The notes under the pieces were generated by a model that did not search any database, was not told where the DNA came from, and was given only the letters and a program-made list of their open reading frames with translations. Source: Endomicrobium sp. (GTDB lineage: Bacteria > Elusimicrobiota > Endomicrobiia > Endomicrobiales > Endomicrobiaceae). Taken from it: a stretch of 17,992 nt of DNA. The stretch lies in NCBI GenBank assembly GCA_031283985.1, contig JAITAQ010000006.1, positions 1 to 17,992 of the forward strand, read 5' to 3'. Each line of letters starts with the position of its first letter. The first letter of the stretch is position 1. Below, piece by piece: positions 6,454-17,992 of the stretch. Made by a program: the position numbers and the translations under genes.

Positions 6454-7029
6454 ATGAGAATTGAGAATAACGCGATAATGACGAGCGTTTAGTTTATAGT
6501 GTTTCTCAAGTAATCGACATGAAGACTGTATGAAAGAGTCAGGCTCATACCCTAAATAGATTATTGCAAACCATTATGCACTGCAAGAGTGCAGGGTAGC
6601 GATGCTGAAAAGGAAATCACAAAAGCTATAAAATACTTAAACGATAATTATAAAGACTTAGATGTTCTTCTTATTGGTGGTGATGGATTTAATATTCAAC
6701 AATTATCTTGAGCGATTTGAAAGATTGAAGCCTTCAAGAAGTTTAATAAAGCCGTATTTAATATATGAAGATAAAATAACTTACGTTGATGATATGGGCA
6801 AAAGACTTAAAAAATAATGCAGAAAGATTTTTTGAAACGAAGTTTGAAAAATACCACTTATAAATTAAATATATTGTCCTCTTTGGCTGTTTTGGAAAAA
6901 GGCTTTTCAATTTGTTTTCCAAGTAATAATAAAATTATTAAAAATTCAAGCGAAGTCAAAAAAGGCGATATTGTGAATATAAGACTTGCGTCTGGCAGTT
7001 TTAGCGCCGAGGTAAAATTTTATGACTAA
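6454..7029 (+). pseudogene. xseA: Exonuclease VII large subunit, decayed remnant
   Basis: XseA is the catalytic subunit of exonuclease VII, which degrades single-stranded DNA. Pieces of it survive in order but in changing frames. YSVSQVIDMK at 6495-6524 matches the family's N-terminal YsVSql opening and is followed by TGA at 6531. ARVQGSDAEKEITKAI and DLDVLLIGGDG (6583-6693) match the central vrVQG...eI..aI and DvliigRGGGS region, but the RGGGS signature is broken and a stop follows at 6709. YLERFERLKPSR and on (6704-6817) is a shifted C-terminal piece. Bases 6817-7029 encode the last 70 residues with LSSLAVLEKGFSI and VKKGDIVNIRLASG. A normal xseA is about 1.2 kb; about 0.58 kb remains, so large deletions have occurred. 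The 70-codon open tail is not a gene in its own right. Confidence 0.88.
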
Positions 7030-7237
7030 AAGGCAATTAAATTTTGAAAATTCTTTGCAAAGACTATAAGCTATAGTTTCAGAAATGGAAAACGTCGAGC
7101 TTGATTTGGATAAAGCCTTAGCTTTGTTTTCTGACTGATCGCCGTTCGTAAAATTTTGCTCCGAAAAACTCAACGCAACAAAAAAGAAAATTGAAATTAT
7201 AGCTTCTTCAGGAGAAATAAAGTCTTTTAAGGAGTAA
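7022..7237 (+). pseudogene. xseB: Exonuclease VII small subunit with two nonsense codons
   Basis: The frame from ATG 7022 to TAA 7235-7237 gives 71 codons, the normal size of XseB. It reads with family-typical residues throughout: LNFENSLQRL, AIVSEMENVELDLDKALALF, then FCSEKLNATKKKIEII. It is broken by TAA at 7067-7069 (codon 16, where the family usually has Glu) and TGA at 7136-7138 (codon 39, usually Gly). Both can arise by one base change from GAA and GGA. There are no frameshifts, so inactivation looks more recent than that of xseA, whose end it overlaps by eight bases. The Shine-Dalgarno sequence of ispA (AGGAG) lies in its last codons. Confidence 0.88.
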
Positions 7238-7240
7238 ATT

Positions 7241-8134
7241 TTGCAAAAAGTTAATTTAAAAAAATATTTGTCAAAAAGAACAAAATATGTAAACTCGGCA
7301 TTAAAAAAATTTTTGCCTAAAGACAATTCTATAATTTCTCAAGGTATGCGTTACAGCGTTATGGTAGGCGGAAAAAGACTTCGTCCTATTTGTGTTTTTT
7401 TAGCTGCGGAACTTTTTGGCGGCAAAGCTAAAGATGTTCTTCCCGCAGCTTGTGCGGTAGAATATTTGCATACATACTCGTTAGTTCATGATGATTTGCC
7501 GGCTATGGATAACGATGATTTGCGCAGGGGAATGACTACCAATCATAAAAAATTCGGAGAAGCAGCTGCTATTTTATGCGGTGATGCTTTGCTCACGGAA
7601 GCCTTTAATCTTATAACAAAAGCTAATGCTGAAACTAAGAATATTAACAAAGCTGTAAAGGTTCTCGCTGATTATAGCGGATATAAAGGCATGATTGCAG
7701 GACAAGCCGAAGATACTCTAGAAACCGGCAGCTGGAGCGAGAAAAATAAAGAAATTTTAGAGAAAAAGTTAAAATTTATACAGATAAAAAAAACTGCGTC
7801 GTTAATAGTTGCAAGTTTAAAAGTAGGCGCTCTTTTATCCGACGCAGATGAAAAAAGTTTAAAATCATTAGAAGATTACGGAACAAATATAGGAATAGCT
7901 TTTCAAATTACAGACGATATTTTGGACGTCTATGCTGATAAAAGGCTTTTAGGTAAAAATGGTAGCGATGCAGACAACGATAAACTGACCGCTCTTTCGT
8001 TGTTTGGCAAAGAGGAATCGGAAGGAATAGCGTACAGGCATATAAATAAAGCAAAAAAGGCGTTATCTATATTCGGAGATAAAGCCGAAATATTTCTACA
8101 TCTTGCAGATTATATGACATCAAGGAATTGCTGA
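7241..8134 (+). CDS. ispA: Short-chain polyprenyl diphosphate synthase (farnesyl/geranylgeranyl type)
   Basis: This enzyme condenses isopentenyl diphosphate with allylic diphosphates to give C15 or C20 prenyl diphosphates, feeding quinone and undecaprenyl carrier synthesis. The 297 residues include the first aspartate-rich motif in HDDLPAMDNDDLRRG (D84, D85, D90) and the second in QITDDILD (D225, D226, D229). GGKRLRP near residue 43 binds isopentenyl diphosphate. Translation begins at TTG 7241, with AAGGAG about seven bases upstream inside the xseB remnant. It is followed by a 190-base gap before dxs, the gene supplying its precursors, as in many bacterial xseB-ispA-dxs clusters. Product chain length cannot be read with confidence. 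Confidence 0.93.
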   Translation: MQKVNLKKYLSKRTKYVNSALKKFLPKDNSIISQGMRYSVMVGGKRLRPICVFLAAELFGGKAKDVLPAACAVEYLHTYSLVHDDLPAMDNDDLRRGMTTNHKKFGEAAAILCGDALLTEAFNLITKANAETKNINKAVKVLADYSGYKGMIAGQAEDTLETGSWSEKNKEILEKKLKFIQIKKTASLIVASLKVGALLSDADEKSLKSLEDYGTNIGIAFQITDDILDVYADKRLLGKNGSDADNDKLTALSLFGKEESEGIAYRHINKAKKALSIFGDKAEIFLHLADYMTSRNC

Positions 8135-8324: not shown

Positions 8325-10181
8325 GTGAAAATATTAGATGTTGTGAATAATCCTCAAGATTTAAAAAAGTTAAGTAAAGAAAAATTTTCTTTTCTTGCAA
8401 AGGAAATAAGAGAAGAAATCCTCAATACAATTTCAGTAAATGGTGGTCATTTAGCGTCGAGTCTTGGCGTTGTAGAATTGACGGTTGCGATGCATTACGT
8501 GTTTGATTCTCCTCGTGATAAAATAATTTGGGACGTTGGTCATCAGTCTTATGCCCATAAAATTCTTACCGGAAGGAAAAATGAATTTAAAACAATAAGG
8601 ACTCATAATGGACTTAGCGGTTTCCCGTGTAGATCTGAATCCGAGCATGACGCGTTTGGTGTAGGACATTCTTCAACTTCAATTTCTGCAGCTTTGGGTT
8701 TTGCCGCTGCTAGAGATATAAAAAATGAAGATTATAAAGTAGTAGCAGTTATTGGCGACGGCTCTATGACTGGGGGTCTTGCGTTTGAAGGTTTACAAAA
8801 TGCCGGACATCTTAAAAAAAACATGCTTGTAATATTAAATGATAATGAAATGTTTATATCGCAAAAAATAGGCGCAGTTGCAGGATATTTAGCTAGACTT
8901 TTAACTGTGGGTATGGCAAGAAAAGTTGAAGAAAAGGTGATGAAAACTGTAAGTAGATTCCGAGGTTTTGGTTCGCCTTTTAGAAAGTTTATAAAAAGAG
9001 CTAAAGTAATACTTTTTCCAGGCATGCTTTTTGAAGAAATGGGATTTACGTATATTGGGCCTGTGCAAGGGCACGACATCAATAATTTAACAGTTATTCT
9101 TGAGAATATCAAAGACATGAAAGGTCCTGTTTTATTGCATGTTATTACAAAAAAAGGCAAGGGATACGCTCCCGCTGAAACTGAACCGATAAAATTTCAC
9201 GGAGTAGATAAGTTTGACATAAAAAGTGGTGAAATTATAAAAACCAATGAGGCTACATATACAAAAGTTTTTTCTGACACTCTTATAAAATTTGCTCATT
9301 ACGATAAAAAAATAGTTGCTATAACTGCCGCAATGCCTGAAGGAACTGGACTTGATAAATTTGCTAAAGAGTTTCCTAACAGATATTTTGATGTAGGTAT
9401 TGCTGAAGAACATGCCATTACTTTTGCCGCTGCTATGGCAGCGGACGGCATGAAACCTGTTTGCGCTATTTACTCAACATTTATGCAAAGAGCTATAGAT
9501 AATATTATACATGATGTGGCTTTGCAGAATCTTCCAGTTATCTTTGCTTTGGACAGAGCGGGTCTCGTTGGCGAAGACGGGGGAACTCATCACGGGGCTT
9601 TTGATTTGTCTTATCTGAACTATGTACCTAATTTAATTATTATGTCTCCTGCAGATGAGAACGAATTGCAGCACATGTTAAAAACAGCACTAATCTCCAA
9701 TAAAACTTGCGCCATACGTTATCCTAGAGGAGCAGGAGTAGGGTGCAAACTTGATAAATATCCATGTGTTTTAAAAATTGGGAAAGGGACTGTTGTAAAA
9801 GAAGGTGATGATATTTGCTTTCTTGCTATAGGAAGCCATGTAAATACGTGTTTAAAAGCTGTCCAACTGTTAGGAAAGGAAAATATAAGTGCTTCTGTAA
9901 TAAATATGAGGTTTTTAAAGCCTTTGGACGTTGACATAATAAAAGAAGTTCTTTCAAAAACTAAGAAATTTGTTACGGTTGAAGAAAATTCTTTAATCGG
10001 TGGGTTTGGCGAAAGCGTAAAGAATGTGCTATTTGGTACTGGAGCTGAAGTTGAATGTATAGGTCTTCCAGATAAATTTGTAGAGCATGGAAATGTAAAA
10101 GTACTAAGAAAAAAGTACGGTTTTACACCTGAAGGAGTAGCCAACAAAGCTTTAAAGATGTTTGCAGATGGAAAAAACTAA
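8325..10181 (+). CDS. dxs: 1-deoxy-D-xylulose-5-phosphate synthase
   Basis: DXS joins pyruvate and glyceraldehyde 3-phosphate, using thiamine diphosphate, in the first step of the MEP isoprenoid pathway. I place the start at GTG 8325 (618 residues) because AGAGG lies five bases upstream. The protein then begins with KILDVVNNPQDLKKL, the usual family opening. The longer frame from 8274 adds 17 hydrophobic residues that are atypical. Visible motifs are GHQSYAHKIL with H73, GDGSMTGG with the metal/TPP residues G144-D145-G146, the later NDN, DVGIAEEHA with the catalytic glutamate E361, and GGTHHGAFD. The C-terminal transketolase domain is complete. The end overlaps tlyA by 14 bases. It works with the neighbouring ispA. 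Confidence 0.95.
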   Translation: MKILDVVNNPQDLKKLSKEKFSFLAKEIREEILNTISVNGGHLASSLGVVELTVAMHYVFDSPRDKIIWDVGHQSYAHKILTGRKNEFKTIRTHNGLSGFPCRSESEHDAFGVGHSSTSISAALGFAAARDIKNEDYKVVAVIGDGSMTGGLAFEGLQNAGHLKKNMLVILNDNEMFISQKIGAVAGYLARLLTVGMARKVEEKVMKTVSRFRGFGSPFRKFIKRAKVILFPGMLFEEMGFTYIGPVQGHDINNLTVILENIKDMKGPVLLHVITKKGKGYAPAETEPIKFHGVDKFDIKSGEIIKTNEATYTKVFSDTLIKFAHYDKKIVAITAAMPEGTGLDKFAKEFPNRYFDVGIAEEHAITFAAAMAADGMKPVCAIYSTFMQRAIDNIIHDVALQNLPVIFALDRAGLVGEDGGTHHGAFDLSYLNYVPNLIIMSPADENELQHMLKTALISNKTCAIRYPRGAGVGCKLDKYPCVLKIGKGTVVKEGDDICFLAIGSHVNTCLKAVQLLGKENISASVINMRFLKPLDVDIIKEVLSKTKKFVTVEENSLIGGFGESVKNVLFGTGAEVECIGLPDKFVEHGNVKVLRKKYGFTPEGVANKALKMFADGKN

Positions 10182-14248: not shown

Positions 14249-14322
14249 TTTTAAGGCAGTTTTATAAGTTGACCATCTCTATATTTACACATCTTAAAGT
14301 ATTATATAAAATCCTATTAGTT

Positions 14323-14561
14323 GCTAAAATTTGCGTTTTCGGAAAGAATTCACATTAAACGGGAAAGCGTTTTTTATACAAAATACTGCCAGAGGAGTTT
14401 CCTGTGGATGTTGATTTTGGTATTTCAAACGTTTCTCAGTAAAAAGAGATTGTAAAATGTGTGCAGACGGTGTAGAAATAATAGAGCAATATAAAGTTAA
14501 TGCGGCGGCAAAACTAGTGAATTATACATCTGAACTTAAAAAAGCTATTGTCCTCAATTGA
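14323..14561 (+). pseudogene. trpA: Remnant of tryptophan synthase alpha chain (3' part)
   Basis: Broken reading frames in this stretch recall the end of TrpA, the subunit that cleaves indole-glycerol phosphate. FPVDVDFGISNVSQ (14398-14439) resembles the family's PvavGFGIs..eq segment and is followed by TAA at 14440. KEIVKC continues the match, then a frame change at the repeated GTGTG near 14458-14463 leads to ADGVEIIEQY (14463-14492). That fits aDGvIVGSaiVkiiE with about eight codons, including the GSA phosphate-binding residues, deleted. LVNYTSELKKAI to TGA 14561 matches the final helix. Upstream, FSERIHI and VFYTKY may be remnants of the ERi..I and GFiYyvS segments. The N-terminal two thirds is gone. 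I am fairly but not fully sure. Confidence 0.6.
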
Positions 14562-15044
14562 TATAAAAATTATTAAAACATTTTTTAACTTTTTCATCTG
14601 TAAAGTTACTAATATTCTGATTTATATGAGTATATCTGAACAATAATTTTAGGGATACTAGGGTTTTTGTTTTAATTTTCATATAATAACTAAATGTTGC
14701 ATTTTTCTTTCTAATTTGTATAGCAGATATTTAGTTAATCCTGCTTACAAAAAAGTAGAGGTTTGACATAATTTATAGAGAAAATTTTTTTCATCGTGGT
14801 AATAATATTGTCATTATTTACATTGTGTTAATGCTTGTTGCTTGAATAGGATGAGTGATGATGAGCAAAGAAATATATATGCATCCATCCAGCTGATGAG
14901 GAAGAGAAAGGTCAAGCACTTTTAGAGCATATCAGCTCTGCAAGTGCAATATATGCAGTGGAGAAATTGAATCCTATTATCTGGCTCCTTAAATAATTAT
15001 ACTATAGATTTTAAGTCTATGAAAATAAAATTAGGAAGGGGAAT
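14562..15044 (+). other. Gene-poor region upstream of cas9 with an unidentified decayed reading frame and hairpins
   Basis: No intact gene is visible in these 483 very AT-rich bases. TTGACA at 14763-14768 has no clear -10 partner. At 14865-14993, two short frames joined by a frameshift read MSKEIYMHP and then DEEEKGQALLEHISSASAIY onward to NPIIWLLK and TAA; this looks protein-like, but I cannot name the family. Within it, GCACTT-AGAGC pairs with GCTCT-AAGTGC (14916-14947), and AGCTGAT (14891-14897) can instead pair with ATCAGCT (14931-14937). ATAGA/TCTAT (15004-15020) forms a small hairpin just before cas9. A tracrRNA could hide here, but without the CRISPR repeat sequence it cannot be recognised. 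GGAAGGGG at 15034-15041 is the cas9 ribosome binding site. Confidence 0.5.
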
Positions 15045-17992
15045 ATGCAATTAAAAAATCAAATTTATCAGAAATATTTAGTTCAAATAAAAGAAAAATT
15101 AAGAAATAGAGATTATCGCATAGGGCTAGATTTGGGTGTTGGTTCCATAGGTTTTGCGATACTGTCTATGGAAGAAAACTCAGATAAAAATTTATTACCT
15201 AAAGAAATAATAATGTCTGGTTCAAGGATTTTCAAGGCGTCTGATGGTGCCATAAATAGAAGAATGCAAAGAGGACAAAGAAATAATCATAGACATACTA
15301 GAGAAAGAATGCGGTATTTATGGAAGCTTTTAGCGTCTAAAAAATTAGCTTTACCGATTCCAGATAATTTAGAAAAAAAAGAAAGCTCATTGGAGCAGGA
15401 AACTTCGTCTAAAAGATTTCCTGCAGGAGTTTTACAAAAAGACGTATATGAACTAAGAGTTAAAGCGCTTGACGAGAAATTATCCCTGCAAGAAATAGGA
15501 TATGCTTTATACCATATTGCAAATCATAGAGGTTCTTCTGCAATAACAATAAGAACTTTTGAAGAAGATTCTGAAGAATCTCAAAAAGAAAATACGAAAA
15601 ATAAAAAAATAGCCAAAAGTGTTGGACAACTAATGAAAGAGAAGTCTTATAGAACTTACGGCGAATATCTTTACAGAGAAAAATTTGAAAACAAACATAA
15701 AAGAGAAAAAGTGAGCAACACTACAAATAATCATAAATTTTCTCCTACAAGAGGTTTTGCAATTAAAGAAGTGCGATTAATTTTAAAAAATCAAGCAAAA
15801 TATCATAAAGAATTAGCTGACGATTATATTGAAAAAATTGTTAAAGCAATAGATTACGAAACGGAAAGGTTAATACCCGAAAGCGGATATTGTATATATT
15901 TTAAAGATGAAAAACGCTTGCCTCGTTCTCATAAGTTAAATGAAGAACGTCGTCTTTGGGAAGCTTTAAATAATGCAAGATATTTTCAGGATGTTGTTGA
16001 TAGAGATACAGGTGAAATTACAAATTGTGAAGAAAAAAAGTTTTCAAAAGAACAAAAAGAAAAATTATTTGAGTATCTTTTATCGGGAAAAGAATTAACG
16101 CAATCGCAAACAAAGAAATTGCTAAATTTAGAAGAGGATTCTCAAAATATTGTTTTACAGGGAAGAGATAAAAAGACACAAAAAATAAAAGGTTATAAAT
16201 TACGAGTGCTGGAAGATATGCCGTTTTGGGGAAGATTATCCGAACAGCAACAAGATCAATTTTTATACGATTGGAATTCTTATCCAGACGAAAAAGTTTT
16301 GGAAGATAAACTTAAAAAGGAATACAAATTAACGGATAAAGAAATAGAGGAAGCTTTTGATAAAATTGTGCTAGCGTCTTCATATGCATCGCTTGGAAAA
16401 AGTGCTATGAAAAAAGTTTTAGAGAAAATAAAAGATGGGTTATCTTATACAGAAGCAATAGAAGAATCTTTAAACGAGGGCAAGTTAACAAAAGACAAAC
16501 AATCTGTTAAAGACAAATTGCCTTATTATGGTGTCGTTTTGCCTGAAAGCACTCAAGCGGTAATTGCAAAAGGCTTTTCAAAGCAATTTGCTGAAAGAAA
16601 ATATAAAACGCCTTATACAAATAAAGATGAATTGAACTATGGAAGAATTGCAAATCCCGTAGTTCATCAAACACTAAACGAGCTTCGCAAATTGGTTAAC
16701 GAAATTATAGAAATTTTTGGGAAGAAACCTGTAGAGATAGGTTTGGAAACGGCAAGAGAATTAAAAAAATCTGCTGAAGATAGAGAGCAATTAAGTAATG
16801 AGCAAAATCGTAACGAAAAGAACAGAAATAGAATTTATAAAGAGTATATAGAAAAGCACCAAGAAACTATAAAAACAAGAAATGAAAATCCAAAAAAATA
16901 TATTTTAAAATTTGAGTTATTTGAAGAACAAAAGCATATCTGTCCATTTTGTTTGCAGACAATAAATGTTGACGATATTATAAATAATGAAGTTGATATA
17001 GATCATTTATTTCCTTTTTCTGAAAGTGAAGATAATTCAAGGAACAATCTTGTTATTTCACATGGAAGTTGTAATGAAAAGAAGGGCAAGCGTCCTCCTT
17101 TTAACGCGTTCGGTTTGTCGCCAAAATTGAGAGATATTCAATACGATTATAACGGAATGCTTTTAAATGCTAAAACAAATCTTTTTAAAAAATCTTGGCG
17201 ATTTTATCAAGGATCTTTTGAAAAATTTATAGAAAACAAGCCTATGAAAAAGAGATTTGAAACAGATAATTCTTATATTTCTAAAGTCGCGCATAAATAT
17301 CTCTCATGTTTATTTGAGAAGCCAAATATATTTTGTGTTAAAGGTTTTTTGACGTCTCAGCTGCGCTTGGCGTGGGGCTTAAATGGATTATTAATCCCTT
17401 TTGCAAAAAAATTGCTATCTGGTAAGAAATTAGAAGAGCTTGAACATGATGTTAATAAAAACAAGAAAATTAGATTAGATAACAGACACCACGCGTTAGA
17501 TGCTATAGTTATAGGATTTGCTTCAAGAGGTTACGGCAATTTATTAAATAAATTACATGGGCAAGGATATAAAATAAATTATAGAGATAAAAATTGGTTT
17601 TCTAAAATTTTAATTCCACCAAATAATGAAAATTTAGAATCATTTAAAAATTCTATAAACCAAGCATTAAAAGACTCTTTTATTAGCATTAAGCACGATC
17701 ATAATAATAACGGTGAACTTACAAAAGCAACAATGTACAAAATTTATAATTCAATGGATGGGTATATTTTAACTACGTGCAAATTGTTAAGTGCAATAAA
17801 GTTGGAAAAATCTCCGAAAAAAAATTTAGAAAATGCTCTTTTAACATTTGAAGGCAAACACAATGAATTAGAAAATAAGGAAATAAAAAATGCAGTTGAT
17901 AATAATAAAAAACTATTTGAAGATATACAAAAAAAGCTTAAAGAAGCTGAAGAATTGCTTGATGAAGAAAATAAAAAAGCTAAGACAGAAGG
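15045..17992 (+). CDS. cas9: Type II CRISPR-associated endonuclease Cas9, 3' end beyond the window
   Basis: Cas9 uses a crRNA:tracrRNA guide to cut matching foreign DNA. From ATG 15045, after a strong GGAAGGGG, the frame is open for 982 codons to the window edge with no stop. RuvC-I is RIGLDLGVGSIGFAIL with catalytic D29. The arginine-rich bridge helix follows (NRRMQRGQRNNHRHTRERMR, about 71-90). The recognition lobe includes YELRVKALDEKLSLQEIGYA and HIANHRGSS. RuvC-II is VEIGLETARE with E568. HNH has C633/C636, DIDH with H654, and SCNEKKGKRPP with N677. RuvC-III is DNRHHALDA with H816 and D819. SIKHDHNNNGELTKATMY near 881 resembles the wedge region of compact type II-C enzymes. A Lys/Glu-rich stretch runs from about 921 to the edge. 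The compact size and absence of large insertions favour II-C, but subtype is inference. All nuclease residues are intact. Confidence 0.96.
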   Translation, partial: MQLKNQIYQKYLVQIKEKLRNRDYRIGLDLGVGSIGFAILSMEENSDKNLLPKEIIMSGSRIFKASDGAINRRMQRGQRNNHRHTRERMRYLWKLLASKKLALPIPDNLEKKESSLEQETSSKRFPAGVLQKDVYELRVKALDEKLSLQEIGYALYHIANHRGSSAITIRTFEEDSEESQKENTKNKKIAKSVGQLMKEKSYRTYGEYLYREKFENKHKREKVSNTTNNHKFSPTRGFAIKEVRLILKNQAKYHKELADDYIEKIVKAIDYETERLIPESGYCIYFKDEKRLPRSHKLNEERRLWEALNNARYFQDVVDRDTGEITNCEEKKFSKEQKEKLFEYLLSGKELTQSQTKKLLNLEEDSQNIVLQGRDKKTQKIKGYKLRVLEDMPFWGRLSEQQQDQFLYDWNSYPDEKVLEDKLKKEYKLTDKEIEEAFDKIVLASSYASLGKSAMKKVLEKIKDGLSYTEAIEESLNEGKLTKDKQSVKDKLPYYGVVLPESTQAVIAKGFSKQFAERKYKTPYTNKDELNYGRIANPVVHQTLNELRKLVNEIIEIFGKKPVEIGLETARELKKSAEDREQLSNEQNRNEKNRNRIYKEYIEKHQETIKTRNENPKKYILKFELFEEQKHICPFCLQTINVDDIINNEVDIDHLFPFSESEDNSRNNLVISHGSCNEKKGKRPPFNAFGLSPKLRDIQYDYNGMLLNAKTNLFKKSWRFYQGSFEKFIENKPMKKRFETDNSYISKVAHKYLSCLFEKPNIFCVKGFLTSQLRLAWGLNGLLIPFAKKLLSGKKLEELEHDVNKNKKIRLDNRHHALDAIVIGFASRGYGNLLNKLHGQGYKINYRDKNWFSKILIPPNNENLESFKNSINQALKDSFISIKHDHNNNGELTKATMYKIYNSMDGYILTTCKLLSAIKLEKSPKKNLENALLTFEGKHNELENKEIKNAVDNNKKLFEDIQKKLKEAEELLDEENKKAKTE

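Follow-up and report, generated by a model that had tools for sequence, protein, structure and literature searches.

The window analysed here is a stretch of 17,992 nucleotides from an Endomicrobium metagenome-assembled genome (MAG; assembly GCA_031283985.1, G000 in the following), and it comprises the whole of contig JAITAQ010000006.1 (C41). Its end falls within a cas9 gene, which encodes the effector of a type II system of clustered regularly interspaced short palindromic repeats (CRISPR) and is the subject of this analysis. G000 consists of 659,866 bases on 90 contigs and is 64.7% complete with a contamination of 0.76%; scaling 660 kb by 65% gives a full genome size of about 1 Mb. For the endosymbiotic genus Endomicrobiellum, the accessible part of PMC11257099 gives genomes below 1.5 Mb, and the estimate for G000 lies within this range. 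G000 represents a bacterium of the termite-gut type, whose small genome is eroding and which presumably lives inside a flagellate. The scans of the genus described below covered 41 genomes.

The cas9 gene at the contig end and a second Cas9

An earlier note on this DNA had described the cas9 frame as open through all 982 codons. This was confirmed: the frame contains no stop, and the match of its translation to the NCBIfam model TIGR01865 (516 bits, cut-off 100; E 2.3e-154) establishes a genuine Cas9. Pfam places HNH_4 at residues 633-686 and RuvC_III at residues 733-886, and the protein matches 41 distinct sequences of the PDB (best E 1.9e-37). Identity is 79% to the 1183-residue Cas9 of genome G013 and, in the best segment, 72% to the Cas9 of 'Candidatus Endomicrobium neocapritermitis' (locus L002, WRJZ01000048.1, belonging to genome G065). 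The latter was the sole named relative in a scan of a genome collection with the window Cas9, in which one of 47 candidate stretches was confirmed; plasmid records gave 51 matches, all below 60% identity. The alignment of the G000 and G013 genes has four gaps in the former and three in the latter, every one of whole codons. Aligned with the 1183 residues of the G013 protein, the window frame reaches position 989, and the last ~194 codons are not seen; the C-terminal end of Cas9 holds the part that interacts with the protospacer-adjacent motif.

D29, E568, H654, N677, H816 and D819, which the same note had listed, are all present (Table 1). They are invariant in every row covering the respective column of an alignment of G000 with G013, G005, G065, G024 and G043, i.e. 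in six rows for D29 and E568 and in five for the others, as G005 ends earlier. The window Cas9 therefore possesses both nuclease domains of the family, RuvC and HNH, with their catalytic residues.

Table 1. Positions of the features discussed in the text, counted along the window unless another contig is named
Feature	Position	Strand	Basis
cas9, codons 1-982 of about 1180	15045..17990	+	open frame; TIGR01865; gene truncated where the contig ends (17992)
D29 codon, RuvC-I aspartate	15129..15131	+	same residue in 6/6 rows
E568 codon, RuvC-II glutamate	16746..16748	+	6/6 rows; aligns to E in PDB chain 9ar4_A
HNH catalytic stretch with H654 and N677	17004..17075	+	5/5 rows reaching it; Pfam HNH_4
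RuvC-III motif HALD with H816 and D819	17490..17501	+	H and D in 5/5 rows; Pfam RuvC_III
Ribosome-binding-like AGGAAGG	15033..15039	+	read directly; 5 bases upstream of the cas9 ATG
Second Cas9 of G000, complete, 1070 residues	L087:329-3541 (contig C62)	-	NCBIfam Cas9d, 838 bits, cut-off 375
xseA pseudogene	6574..7026	+	tblastn with the 406-residue G013 XseA; three pieces, other frames or deletions between
xseB pseudogene	7022..7234	+	two in-frame stops; tblastn with the 71-residue G013 frame; named by eye and position
trpA remnant, 26 residues	14472..14549	+	tblastn with TrpA of relatives, best E 3.6e-5
ftsB-cas9 interval without long frame	14249..15044	.	blastn and six-frame translation

The main addition of this analysis is a second, very different and intact Cas9 in the same assembly. 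It lies on contig C62 and matches the Cas9d model far above the cut-off, whereas the window Cas9 reaches only 95 bits and thus falls outside subtype II-D as defined by this model. The two proteins share 25% identity over 321 aligned positions. Behind the second Cas9 follows the start of a cas1 gene, named by its likeness to that of G013 and cut by the contig end. C62 is assigned to the organism of G000 on the basis of the binning and of G013 having both types of Cas9. In G013 the second Cas9 is likewise intact and accompanied by cas1, cas2 and an array of at least 44 repeats (L085, L019, contig C10); the repeats of this second array have 36 bases, its spacers 30-31 bases, and the contig begins inside the array. 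Among cas9, cas1, cas2 and the array of this locus, no extra frame of more than 90 codons was found on the strand of cas9, no cas4 model being run. Cas9 was detected by the family scan above the cut-off in nine of the 41 genomes and in ten at E 1e-5. The second type is frameshifted near residue 57 in G009 and near residue 123 in G023 (L086, L078), and in G006 it is cut by a contig end.

Related loci in the genus

Seven copies of the window-type cas9 were compared, six from genomes of the genus and one from L002; three are broken, and the other four are open to the extent that they are covered. G011, with a match of only 36% and three stops, was left out of this count. In L002, which together with G013 is the nearest relative having the whole gene, cas9 (1187 residues), cas1 and cas2 stand in a row, followed by an array of 15 repeats spaced 66 bases, with no other frame between. 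G013 shows cas9, cas1 and cas2 in the same row before its contig ends 164 bases past cas2, and in G005 cas9 is open for 602 codons up to the contig end. The copy of G024 contains one frameshift, which could be a sequencing error, and CRISPR repeats are present. The locus of G064 (L041:3818-8322) is decayed: cas9 has two frameshifts and cas1 one, and cas2 is cut to 29 matched residues. In G062 (L042:5318-7382, reverse strand), one frameshift and one stop interrupt cas9, the 5' part of which is truncated directly at CRISPR repeats; the 12 kb read there gave no match to the 3' part of cas9, to cas1 or to cas2. The order cas9-cas1-cas2 of G013 and L002 bears on the assignment of the window gene to type II-C, its own cas1 and cas2 not having been found in the 64.7% complete assembly.

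On the opposite strand, the interval that separates cas2 from the array of L002 contains GGGCAACTCTAAC; this sequence is able to pair, with one G-U, to the beginning of the locus's own repeat, GTTAGGGTTGCCC; TTTCGTAAGATGCCGG follows a few bases after it. By its position and sequence, this stretch is a candidate for the trans-activating CRISPR RNA (tracrRNA). G013 has nearly the same stretch at the same place, though its contig shows no repeat of this locus, and looser versions occur at this place in G024 and G043. No such stretch was found in G064 within the 290 bases read past cas2. The corresponding place in the window lineage falls beyond the end of the window.

Spacers were compared with phage sequences. 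Neither five of the 14 spacers of L002 nor three of the 43 spacers of the second array of G013 (23-24-base cores in both cases) had an exact match in IMG/VR. Against phage records, the L002 array gave no match and the second array of G013 gave 84 at E up to 1; the 20 listed have E values of 0.3-0.9 and were taken as chance. These comparisons speak neither for nor against selection by phage.

With regard to gene names, leuS, lptE, ftsB, rarA, rny, gyrA and xseB were assigned by eye and without a family search, as were the RNA methyltransferase before the G005 cas9, the ATPase in L002 and the cas1 on C62; dxs, Cas9, the xseA piece and cas1 and cas2 of G013 were checked against families. The window has the order leuS, lptE, ftsB, cas9. 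In 20-kb stretches around the leuS-lptE-ftsB counterparts of G013 and G005 there is no match to cas9; in these genomes, cas9 follows an RNA methyltransferase-like gene, and blastn found no match between the stretch before the window cas9 and the stretch before cas9 in either of them. In L002, cas9 is preceded by gyrA-like, ATPase-like and PDC-S02-like genes. These differing positions indicate that the locus was moved or gained at different places.

A separate observation concerns the surroundings of the L002 locus, where a repeat of 148 bases occurs at 7718-7865, near the end of the gyrA-like gene, and again at 8724-8871, after the ATPase-like gene (97% identity). It looks as if an inserted piece with the ATPase-like gene had duplicated the end of gyrA, near the PDC-S02-like gene and cas9.

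The nonsynonymous divergence (dN, NG86) of cas9 was expressed relative to the average over leuS, dxs, rny and rarA. The approximate ratios are 1.9 for G000-G013, 1.2 for G000-G065 and 1.3 for G013-G065; with G024 they are 2.4 (G000) and 2.5 (G013), and the pair G013-G005, over 602 codons, gives 3.0. That the values with G065 are low suggests, as a weak hint from sequence comparison, that the lineages of G065 and of the window may have exchanged cas9 after the species split. Divergence at four-fold sites, which are near saturation, agrees with such an exchange for G000-G065 (0.526 for cas9, 0.577-0.649 for the housekeeping genes); cas9 is not distinct in the comparisons of G065 with G013 (0.566 against 0.560-0.597) and G005 (0.547 against 0.550-0.603). 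The recent acquisition considered in the earlier note has some support in so far as the locus was acquired or relocated, given the differing places and the low dN to L002; that this happened recently is not demonstrated.

We consider it possible, at slightly less than an even chance, that a lineage of termite-gut Endomicrobia with reduced, eroding genomes keeps two unrelated Cas9 systems, one of type II-C and the other of the Cas9d kind, with effectors intact in G013 and, as far as seen, in G000, and that defence was gained, moved and lost repeatedly rather than lost once, such loci being broken elsewhere in the genus and located at varied places.

Selection on cas9 and rival explanations

Over the 976 codons compared between G000 and G013, cas9 has a ratio of nonsynonymous to synonymous substitution rates (dN/dS) of 0.21 (NG86) or 0.18 (YN00); for leuS, dxs, rny and rarA, the same pair yields 0.07-0.15. 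For the majority of more distant pairs, NG86 and polarised counts were used in place of YN00. Polarisation assigns 62 nonsynonymous and 83 synonymous changes of cas9 to the G000 branch (ratio 0.177) and 66 and 91 to the G013 branch (0.172), and the four housekeeping genes have ratios of 0.065-0.107 on the G000 branch. In the sister lineages the cas9 ratios are noisy (G005 0.438, G013 0.233; 599 codons). The second Cas9 has a polarised ratio of 0.172 (47:65) on the G000 branch, which, like that of the window cas9, lacks the power to show present function. A relaxation of selection in the last third of cas9 was considered and rejected as weak (28:24 in G000, 18:31 in G013; Fisher p 0.11).

A loss of constraint was simulated. 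Over 5% of the four-fold divergence between G000 and G013 it produced a mean of 4.2 stops, and 1.5% of 200 runs remained without any, which excludes chance as the reason for the open frame; over 2% of this divergence, 1.9 stops arose and 17% of the runs had none. Taken together with the open frame, these simulations mean that constraint, if lost at all, must have been lost recently. That the window cas9 was under selection until recently is thus supported.

The window cas9 is probably a genuine effector of the II-C kind, belonging to a cas9-cas1-cas2-tracrRNA-array locus whose remaining parts are missing from the assembly. The 5' five-sixths of the gene would be what is seen, and the other half of the locus would be what the assembly lacks. 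Judged by homology, the protein would bind a pair of CRISPR RNA (crRNA) and tracrRNA, and its HNH and RuvC centres would cleave the matching DNA. Loci of this kind appear to occupy different places in the genus, to be patchily spread and to break in several lineages, and in the window lineage cas9 would, at least up to recent times, have remained open and subject to purifying selection. A functional system, which may still be active today, is plausible.

Several findings weigh against this interpretation. First, the constraint on cas9 is weaker than that on the housekeeping genes of the same branch (62:83 against 87:262, p 0.00015). Second, broken copies of cas9 have equally low ratios: over 465 codons of G064 and G062 compared with each other, 0.157 is found for G064 and 0.099 for G062, and against G024 the values are 0.119 (G064, 823 codons) and 0.096 (G062, 462 codons). 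The housekeeping genes of the G064-G062 pair give 0.088-0.355, so that the broken cas9 copies lie within or below their range, and the counts of the G000 cas9 do not differ significantly from those of the broken copies (62:83 against 29:53; Fisher p 0.32). Third, in G000, no further piece of the window cas9 was found with the L002 Cas9 as query. The Cas1 of L002 matched nothing there, though its counterparts in G013 and G024 were found; this search was imperfect, as it missed the 5' part of the distant cas1 on C62. A search for Cas2, which had no positive control, gave nothing, and two patterns derived from the repeats of relatives had no match, the repeat of G000 itself being maybe different. 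Besides cas9, no part of the window locus is demonstrated. Finally, the duplex of repeat and putative tracrRNA scores -27.5 in L002 against a mean of -16.6 and a best value of -27.3 for 100 shuffles, and -20.2 in G024 against -14.0 and -23.5; these energies are not clearly better than those of the shuffles, and the tracrRNA therefore stays a candidate.

As about a third of the genome is absent and the searches were imperfect, the failure to find these parts is no proof of their loss. At the same time, with the contig ending in cas9 and with cas1, cas2, tracrRNA and array not found, function cannot be shown. The low ratio was rejected as an argument for a functional cas9, since the broken copies are just as low; it signals past selection and not present function. 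Accordingly, the comparison of dN/dS that the earlier note had proposed found constraint (0.177) and did not decide on function, because broken copies give 0.10-0.16. Past selection on the gene is supported (polarised ratio about 0.18); the description "apparently functional" overstates the case. This example contains a methodological warning: in this group, dN/dS of cas9 does not distinguish systems that work from those that died recently.

An unlikely alternative that has to be taken seriously is such a freshly dead system, in which cas9 is open by chance or recency and the 3' end, the adaptation genes or the array of the locus are gone. Three of the seven window-type copies are broken (G064, G062, G024), dN/dS does not tell them from the open ones, and nothing else of the window locus turned up in the assembly. 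The 982 codons without stop or frameshift speak against it; moreover, the contigs of G005 and G013 also break near the locus, which may be an assembly problem. Far less probable is that the type II locus on C62 supplies the window cas9 with adaptation genes or guides, so that a cas1, cas2 and array of its own would be dispensable. The assembly does hold the second intact Cas9 followed by the start of cas1, but the two Cas9 proteins are very different, G013 retains cas1 and cas2 at both loci, and in relatives each kind of Cas9 has repeats of a different sequence next to it, which makes shared guides unlikely. Slightly less credible still is a mis-binned or chimeric contig with a cas9 from another organism: the position after ftsB is shared with neither G013 nor G005, but the contamination estimate is low, and among the seven genomes compared, leuS, dxs and cas9 are all closest to G013 and G005.

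Decayed genes and comparison with known systems

The decay of xseA, xseB and a trpA-like gene near cas9, as proposed in the earlier note, is borne out by the three pieces of xseA, the two stops of xseB and a remnant of trpA that is real but tiny. Both xse genes are open in G013 and G005, and the last piece of xseA matches Pfam Exonuc_VII_L. The trpA remnant has 58-62% identity to TrpA of three of four relatives (E 3.6e-5 to 1e-4), whereas TrpA of the fourth (L070) has no match at this place. trpA is present in four of seven genomes (G024, G062, G064, G065); the Pfam model found none in G000, G005 and G013. The absence of any trpA remnant was considered, as the Pfam search was blank also for a 33-residue piece, and was rejected in view of the 26 residues matched by TrpA of the relatives. 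In the interval between ftsB and cas9, positions 14279-14331 and 14343-14385 match the region following ftsB in G005. A frame of 42 residues upstream of cas9 had no match in Pfam, and Rfam and tRNA scans of the window had none either.

The earlier note had presented the retention of CRISPR as surprising for such symbionts. A paper by Izawa et al. of 2016 names the requirement and decay of defence systems in its title. Retention is no surprise, having already been published, as the accessible parts of PMC11257099, PMC5478533, PMC7608387 and PMC8809381 show, and PMC11257099 has described both the presence of CRISPR in Endomicrobia and its patchy distribution. What is added is a further case of the published pattern, in which genes of metabolism and repair are lost from the group but adaptive immunity can be kept; this retention suggests continued encounters with foreign DNA. 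That one genus contains open and broken copies next to genomes in which none was detected is useful for timing the loss.

According to the accessible part of PMC11257099, 15 MAGs of Endomicrobiaceae contain CRISPR-Cas, with 11 systems of type II-C and three of type I-C, and only these two types are mentioned there. The window shares with these II-C systems the family, the type II effector and the patchy occurrence across free-living and endosymbiotic lineages; unlike them, it is cut by the contig end. For the intracellular Rs-D17 ('Ca. Endomicrobium trichonymphae'), the part of PMC5478533 at hand states, citing Izawa et al. 2016, that at least one functional CRISPR-Cas system is kept, and PMC7608387 likewise, in the part available, speaks of functional CRISPR-Cas. 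Like Rs-D17, the window organism, presumably a symbiont as well, carries a CRISPR gene, but the genomes differ and the rest of the window locus is not seen. With respect to Cas9d and subtype II-D (PMC9755519, PMC12669027, both as far as accessible), the Cas9 of C62 fits the model and the window Cas9 does not; the latter source defines the adaptation module of II-D as cas1, cas2 and cas4, and G013 shows cas1 and cas2, with no cas4 among the frames on the cas9 strand. A full-text literature search, with most subscription papers outside its reach, gave no paper containing both "Cas9d" and "Elusimicrobi". 'Ca. Endomicrobium neocapritermitis', finally, has in L002 a complete cas9-cas1-cas2-array locus in contrast to the cut copy of the window; its cas9 lies beside the gyrA-like and PDC-S02-like genes and that of the window beside ftsB, and its assembly is larger (2.4 Mb).

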